NCBI GenBank assembly: GCA_003136335.1 | Contig: PLEA01000653.1 | Location: forward strand, 1 to 9,172 | DNA: 9,172 nt | Direction: 5' to 3' | Origin: Acidobacteriaceae bacterium | GTDB taxonomy: Bacteria; Acidobacteriota; Terriglobia; Terriglobales; SbA1 | Shown here: piece by piece, positions 8,434 through 9,172 of the stretch | Layout: every line of letters begins with the position of its first letter | Position numbering within the stretch: position 1 is the stretch's first letter | Notes under the pieces: generated by a model | What the model saw: only the letters and a program-made list of their open reading frames with translations | The model's database searches: none | What the model was told of the DNA's origin: nothing | Program-made: the position numbers and the translations under genes

Positions 8434-8480
8434 AACCATCTTGGACAGAGAAACGCAATAGTAGGAGCCGTCAGACTCCA

Positions 8481-8559
8481 GCCGCGAAGCGGCGGCATGT
8501 GAAAGCCCGGCACGGAAGTGCCGGATAGAATAGAAAAACTCAACGAGTCCCGCAGGGAC
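8481..8559 (+). repeat. Tandem three-hairpin repeat-like element upstream of mutM
   Basis: Three perfect short stem-loops lie in a row: GCCGC-gaa-GCGGC (8481-8493), CCGGCAC-ggaa-GTGCCGG (8507-8524, a GNRA-type tetraloop if transcribed) and GTCCC-gca-GGGAC (8547-8559). I recall similar strings (AAGCCCGGCACGGAAGTGCCGG, in shorter pieces) as dispersed intergenic repeats in acidobacterial genomes, but this was not checked. The true ends are unknown and are probably somewhat wider, about 8470-8565. It could also end pirin transcription or act in the mutM leader. No transposase gene is nearby. Confidence 0.6.
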
Positions 8560-8603: not shown

Positions 8604-9172
8604 ATGCCCGAACTCCCCGAAGTCGAAACCATCGCGCGCGGCCTCGCCAAACGAGTCACCGGAGATGTCGTGGAATCCGTCTGGCTCGGCCAGAAGAAGG
8701 AGCCGCTGAAATCCCCGGCATCTGAGATTGCGGCGACGCTCGAACGCAGCCGCATCGCGGCGGTGCGCCGCATGGGCAAGCACATCGTCTTCGATCTTGA
8801 GCGAATTGATGGTGTGGGGCGGACACTCCTGTCCGCCAAAGGCCGGAAATCAAATCGCAAGCCTGAGGGAAGGGCAGTCGCGTCAACACCGGTTTCATCA
8901 ATCAGGCAAGCAGGGACGGACAAGAGTGTCCGCCCCACAGAAGCTCCAAATCCTAAAGCTCAGTGGATCGTCCACCTCGGCATGACGGGCCGCCTCCAGG
9001 TCTGCGAGCCGCAAGCCGAGGTCGCGAAGCACACTCATGCCATCCTCCGATTGTCCTCGGGAAGAGAACTGCGCTTCGTCGATCCCCGCCGCTTCGGCCG
9101 TCTGAGCGTCGCGCAGGCGGGAGACTTCGCCGCCGCCGGCATCGAGCCGCTGGAAGTCGATCTCGACCGTTT
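8604..9172 (+). CDS. mutM: Formamidopyrimidine-DNA glycosylase (Fpg/MutM), 3' end outside window, with in-frame repeat insertion
   Basis: The first 189 residues of the bifunctional base-excision repair glycosylase/AP lyase that removes 8-oxoguanine and formamidopyrimidines. The start is fixed by MPELPEVET: after Met removal Pro is the nucleophile and the next Glu is catalytic. There is no clear Shine-Dalgarno. K59 in RRMGKHIVF matches the conserved lysine near residue 57, HLGMTGRL (124-131) carries the void-filling Met, and DPRRFGRL (160-167) the void-filling Arg and Phe. The zinc finger and H2TH region lie beyond the window. Unusual: between IVFDLERIDG (61-70) and WIVHLGM (121-127) there are 50 residues, where E. 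coli MutM has only a few. Residues 71-112 are encoded by the palindromic element at 8813-8939, and the frame stays open through it. The extra segment falls in a turn of the N-terminal beta-sandwich. Whether the enzyme works is unknown. Confidence 0.93.
   Translation, partial: MPELPEVETIARGLAKRVTGDVVESVWLGQKKEPLKSPASEIAATLERSRIAAVRRMGKHIVFDLERIDGVGRTLLSAKGRKSNRKPEGRAVASTPVSSIRQAGTDKSVRPTEAPNPKAQWIVHLGMTGRLQVCEPQAEVAKHTHAILRLSSGRELRFVDPRRFGRLSVAQAGDFAAAGIEPLEVDLDR
8813..8939. mobile_element. REPIN/MITE-like palindromic element inserted in mutM
   Basis: A 127-bp element with terminal inverted repeats at 8813-8837 and 8915-8939, 23 of 25 positions identical. Each end is itself a hairpin: GGCGGACA-ctcc-TGTCCGCC (8818-8837, perfect) and GACGGACA-agag-TGTCCGCC (8915-8934, 7 of 8 pairs). 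Two inverted REP-like hairpins around a spacer of about 80 bp is the REPIN layout, a non-autonomous element mobilised by RAYT (TnpA-REP) transposases in other bacteria. I recall TGTGGGGCGGACACTC-type strings as common in acidobacterial genomes (often mistranslated as WGGHSCPP or GRTLLS), but did not check. No clear target duplication is visible at the edges, and no transposase is encoded in the window. Confidence 0.75.

Follow-up and report, generated by a model that had tools for sequence, protein, structure and literature searches.

A REP-like palindromic dimer lies in frame within a loop of the DNA glycosylase MutM in a probable member of the Acidobacteriota

The formamidopyrimidine-DNA glycosylase gene mutM occupies the end of the window, the 9,172-nucleotide stretch of DNA analysed here, whose source is assigned to the Acidobacteriota by inference from its nearest relatives in sequence. 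The reading frame begins with MPELPEVE and stays open to the window end, and it contains a 127-bp palindromic element that encodes about 42 residues, from V71 to T112 (Table 1). The PF01149 match covers residues 1–167 and thus spans the insert, which bears out the preliminary description in its claim that the frame continues on both sides with a gain of some 42 residues. As 127 is not divisible by three, the net gain must involve altered flanking bases. About 80 bp before the mutM start the window also contains a match to the Acido-Lenti-1 RNA (RF01687; positions 8480–8525, minus strand; 47.1 bits against a gathering threshold of 37).

Table 1. Positions of the gene, the element and the neighbouring strands in the window
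Feature	Position	Strand	Basis or remark
mutM (formamidopyrimidine-DNA glycosylase) CDS, 3' end outside window	8604..9172	+	PF01149, 1.3e-30
Beta strand, residues 60-67, before insert	8781..8804	+	DSSP, AlphaFold2 model of P0002
REP-like dimer, in frame, 127 bp, codes V71-T112	8813..8939	+	Arm complementarity, fold, hairpin search
Left arm TGTGGGGCGGACACTCCTGTCCGCC, translated as VGRTLLSA; head GTGG, stem 8 bp, loop 4 nt	8813..8837	+	
Spacer, 77 nt	8838..8914	+	L091 and L092 spacers likewise 77 nt; identity to window 50/77, 45/76 aligned
Right arm, inverted copy, head outward; + strand reads TDKSVRPT	8915..8939	-	
Beta strand, residues 119-124, after insert, into HLGM	8958..8975	+	DSSP, AlphaFold2 model of P0002

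The element has inverted ends of 25 bp (23/25 identical), each of which forms a hairpin with an 8-bp stem, just as had first been described. Positions 8813–8835 and 8917–8939 are complementary at 22 of 23 nucleotides (96%) and lie 81 nt apart. Each arm comprises an unpaired GTGG head, the stem and a 4-nt loop, and the two arms are arranged heads outward around the 77-nt spacer. The predicted DNA fold of the 127-mer is −32 kcal/mol, compared to a shuffle mean of −17.71 (sd 2.61, n = 200; z −5.48), and none of the 200 shuffles is as stable. The hairpin pattern GGCGGACANNNNTGTCCGCC, with up to three mismatches, occurs in the window at 8818–8837 and 8915–8934 only (0.10 hits expected; two hits in 0/200 shuffles). 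Two GTGG-headed, REP-like repeats thus arranged form a dimer of REPIN-like layout.

Complete insert-bearing frames are found on other contigs, so more than one assembly shows an in-frame insert; P0003, for example, encodes 312 residues that are 84% identical to the window protein. P0002, of 316 residues and 99% identical, also carries the insert and may represent the window's own cluster. Its residue numbering at the strand before the insert is identical to that of the window protein, and its AlphaFold2 model, built from 84 alignment rows, reaches a mean pLDDT of 86.9. Superimposed onto 1r2y the model scores a TM of 0.91 by target length and 0.79 by query length, and the MutM core is kept. Residues 71–110 are modelled at a pLDDT of about 45–53 between strands 60–67 and 119–124, a low-confidence loop on an intact core that fits a flexible loop and is no proof of disorder or neutrality. 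The original placement of a REP- or REPIN-like repeat in frame, in the loop that joins the Lys59 strand to the HLGM strand, is upheld, and the repeat is tolerated and retained in relatives.

The same hairpin occurs elsewhere in related genomes. Thirty genomes were surveyed, chosen from the order to which G001 belongs and from the G074 family; 17 of them contain it at least once, and a reversed-pattern control gives zero in all 30. The hairpin is found at 43 places in G074, 34 in G091 and 57 in G317, and at 0–9 in the other 27; mutM itself accounts for two of the places in G074 and likewise two in G091. In G074, 16 of the 43 hairpins make up eight strict heads-outward pairs, one of which is the mutM pair. 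Outside mutM the inner repeat of the copies is often longer, for example GCCTTTGACTTT, and a GTAG-headed copy is present at L187. A second hairpin, type B (GCGGGCG/CGCCCGC), is found in 28 of the 30 genomes at up to 102 places (control 0–3), with a few genomes in which it does not exceed the control (in G001, 2 of each). The family to which the insert belongs is multi-copy, and its hosts appear to be Acidobacteriota. Searches of plasmids with the 127-bp element and of viral contigs with the left-arm 22-mer gave no match.

REP elements are associated with Y1 transposases, and Y1 loci were examined in G074 (4/4), G317 (6/8) and G091 (10/18), 20 in total, together with the best locus of each of the 30 genomes. 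The window hairpin flanks no Y1 transposase gene among these loci. One copy lies about 2 kb away (L264) and a near match is present in L265; a GTC variant lies about 365 bp from the gene in L215, and type B hairpins occur in L208, L209 and L265. Other GTRG-headed hairpins are located on both sides of the Y1 gene in L249, L254, L257 and L214, which are candidate REP-transposase units.

The loop that holds the insert is highly variable. From 101 mutM sources 98 loops were taken (none from L084, L131 or L154; G039 supplies two rows), with lengths of 10 to 84 residues and palindromes that are intact, decayed, nested or absent. A perfect hairpin of at least 7 bp is present in 22 of the 98 loops, compared to 30 of 980 windows of matching length from other parts of these genes; among the 22, those of L129, L139, L166 and L177 do not look REP-like by eye. 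Judged likewise by eye, the ends are of type A in the window, L091 and L092, of type B in L094, L104 and L108, and mixed in L093 and L121, whereas L097, L098 and L128 have decayed palindromes. Relatives with these residues and no repeat structure, which the preliminary description took to speak against a mobile element, exist in the form of decayed palindromes, and they look like products of decay given the intact copies in other relatives. An insert is present in all of the best 120 of 8000 scored homologues. The arms of these 120 are classed as AA in 65, BB in 23, BA in 16, AB in three and unclear in 13, all in one reading frame. As types A and B occur with common spacer residues and a common frame, one ancestral insertion with later changes to the arms is suggested. 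Outside the loop L104 and L105 are identical at 169/186 and 512/573 bases. Their loops, 144 nt and 117 nt long, match at 86/112 aligned bases and need 37 gap columns, so that the loop appears to evolve more rapidly than the rest of the gene. The mutM tree leaves 40 of its 94 inner branches open and is too weak for gains and losses to be counted.

Repeats of other kinds are also found in this loop. In L120, L130 and L167 it is filled with tandem repeats and not palindromes. L096, L099 and L109 have inserts nested within an arm, as judged by eye; a small repeat, CTTCGRCAAGCTCAGG, and its kin are nested in frame inside REP arms in these three and in L367, where the small repeat sits within the hairpin loop of a panC copy. 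The 16-mer CTTCGRCAAGCTCAGG is found in 22 of the 30 genomes. As to whether it targets hairpin loops, a flanking stem of at least 8 bp is present in three of 30 sampled copies, with a mean of 5.3 compared to 4.5 in the control.

Hairpins are likewise located in frame in MnmE, MoeA, ParB and PanC, at the N terminus of Dus, before a glycosyltransferase domain and between two domains of a 3-hydroxyacyl-CoA dehydrogenase-like protein. The MnmE loop before IDEVV contains several repeat families, and a hairpin of at least 7 bp is present in 10 of 22 loops against 12 of 220 control windows; the 22 derive from 30 search loci, and no loop was identified in the remaining eight, of which two are weak matches to GTPases other than MnmE. 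Short, hairpin-free MnmE loops occur in L353, L354, L355, L358 and L359. In PanC (24 of 28 loci counted, with L370, L376 and L387 outside the count) the insert is present in G074 and lacking in 23 rows; G256 has an insert at the same place as G074, with a repeat nested in the hairpin loop. Five of the 43 G074 hairpins were placed in conserved genes, with 12 of the covering frames scanned: two in mutM and one each in panC, the glycosyltransferase gene and the 3-hydroxyacyl-CoA dehydrogenase-like gene. The glycosyltransferase gene of L286 (G074) and L298 (G091) has a single hairpin directly before PPVS[MI]LKPLKG in opposite orientations (CGADTPVR and ADRSVRPT), which suggests separate insertions at one place. 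The tolerance of such an element inside a repair enzyme, at first considered unusual, is not exceptional: many relatives carry it, the same loop holds other repeats and other genes carry related hairpins.

The mutM loop carries the host's own repeat family in two cases, G001 and G317, the variants having been counted in both after they were noticed in those genomes. The G001 loop contains an unrelated palindrome, GTAGAGACGCAGCATGCTGCGTCTCTAC, the 25-base form of which is matched in G001 91 times forward and 80 times in reverse (for the most part identical places read on both strands), once in G076 and not at all in the 28 others. GTAGAGACGCAGCATGCTGCGTCTCTAC is also found about 670 bp from a G001 Y1 transposase gene that has one internal stop. 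In G317 the left arm is a variant, GTCGGACA/TGTCCGAC, that occurs at 126 places in G317 including mutM and at no more than 18 in any other of the 30 genomes, and the right arm is type B, with 102 places in that genome. G091 is a counter-case: its mutM arms are type A, the less common type in that genome (34 places, against 64 for type B).

Taken as a whole, the insert is most likely a REP-like dimer of a multi-copy family that lies in frame in a tolerant turn of MutM and whose arms track the repeats of the host. It is proposed that the beta-hairpin turn of MutM can accommodate extra residues and that the insert, in frame at this turn, would be close to neutral. In the clade of the window the insertion is probably old and single, judging from the common frame, arm layout and parts of the spacer. 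The arms would keep changing in step with the host repeats, most simply via gene conversion or recombination between genomic copies, and the G001 lineage probably gained its unrelated palindrome separately in the same loop. Movement of the elements would presumably depend on some Y1 transposase.

An alternative is that a single ancient insertion was inherited vertically and that selection acts on the hairpin at the DNA or mRNA level, for instance through pausing, mRNA stability or protein binding. Both arms show compensatory changes in the stem that agree with this: 139 of 152 left-arm stem pairs are standard pairs against 120.6 (sd 2.7) in shuffles, and 110 of 120 in the right arm against 98.0 (sd 2.0), each reached by 0 of 2000 shuffles, in a sample of 22 left arms (19 distinct) and 15 right arms that was picked by eye from related rows with nested or badly decayed arms excluded and so favours intact stems. 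Pairing from arm to arm is less striking in the 11 genes with both arms (187/220; shuffling the partners gives 176.9, sd 4.5, and the observed value is reached in 28 of 2000 cases). Agreement of the arms at third positions is also complete, 8/8 for each arm in every pair of the window, L091 and L092; over whole arms the pairs agree at 25/25 on the left and 23–24/25 on the right, where the differences are at one or two non-third bases. This compares to 40/62 and 42/66, 26/62 and 43/66, and 26/62 and 45/70 flanking third positions and to 50/77, 45/76 and 49/72 spacer bases in the three pairs. The stem pairing and the agreement between arms equally favour the host-tracking dimer proposed above, but such conservation of the arms could also reflect purifying selection. 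However, vertical inheritance does not sit well with a loop that takes the form of the host's own repeats in two genomes, nor with the many relatives whose arms are decayed or lost while the mutM frame is still open, and this explanation is considered unlikely. Less likely still is selection on the protein loop itself, by which it would alter DNA search, repair activity or the partners of MutM. The presence of the insert in the best 120 of 8000 homologues is in its favour, but the query against which these were ranked itself contained the insert; furthermore, the range of 10–84 residues in 98 genes, the tandem repeats or unrelated palindromes in some of them and the low confidence of the structural model for this region all argue against it. 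A chance palindrome in a GC-rich, non-mobile linker would suit a hypervariable loop and is rejected as barely credible on the basis of the shuffles (fold z as above) and the copy number, the identical hairpin being present at other sites in relatives' genomes where control counts are zero.

The arms resemble repeats of the GTAG superfamily, which have stems of 5–13 bp, loops of 2–20 nt and an unpaired GTAG/GTRG-type head, form dimers and are in some cases intragenic (PMC3733652): the window arms too have an unpaired tetranucleotide head, stem and loop within this range, and many copies in relatives. GTGG heads are recorded for Pseudomonas REPs (PMC2817692) and listed for most O. terrae GTAG-20. 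The arms differ from the superfamily in that the window hairpin does not flank a RAYT/Y1 gene at the loci examined, and in the host-specific filling of one loop and the turnover of arms, which are not found in the available portion of PMC3733652. According to the same portion, many hosts of intragenic REPs are repair genes (uvrA, recB, dnaE2), recB has been hit at about the same site in two Xanthomonas species, and the idea that intragenic REPs in repair genes may create mutators has already been published; its passages on Acidobacteria concern transposase genes and their terminal repeats, and a word search of its main text returns neither mutM nor glycosylase. With REPINs the insert shares two inverted REPs and a spacer, the replicating unit of the REPIN, but REPINs as described in the part of PMC3116915 available are nearly all extragenic and near RAYT genes, whereas the mutM copy is coding and no RAYT linkage was found at the loci examined. 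Rickettsia palindromic elements are mobile palindromes of about 150 bp that insert in frame into unrelated protein genes (PMC10969869, in part), as is seen here in mutM, mnmE, panC, moeA and parB; they belong to other organisms, and the copies here have a REP layout. PARCELs are also palindromic coding repeats that spread between genes, but are tandem 25-residue amphipathic repeats, many of them in proteins with membrane-targeting sequences (PMC2996958, in part). REPs of Acidobacteriota genomes are tabulated in PMC12306157, and REP insertions in some transposase proteins are mentioned in PMC6006769, as far as the available portions of both extend. Among the matches listed for the open-licence PMC literature there is no report of in-frame palindromes in Acidobacteria or in mutM. 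What looks new is that host-specific families repeatedly fill the same protein loops and turn over within them.

The groups with protein-coding palindromes now include what appears to be the Acidobacteriota, and in many species a single gene documents how such elements insert, nest within one another, exchange their arms and decay. Whether coding REP copies evolve in concert with the remaining copies becomes testable, as does the way in which repeats shape the loops of proteins. More tentatively, and with the scales tipped slightly against it, certain loops of Acidobacteriota proteins (MutM, MnmE and perhaps more) may serve as landing places that the palindrome family active in a given host refills and rewrites. 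If so, stretches of housekeeping proteins would change together with a mobile DNA population and not by point mutation alone.
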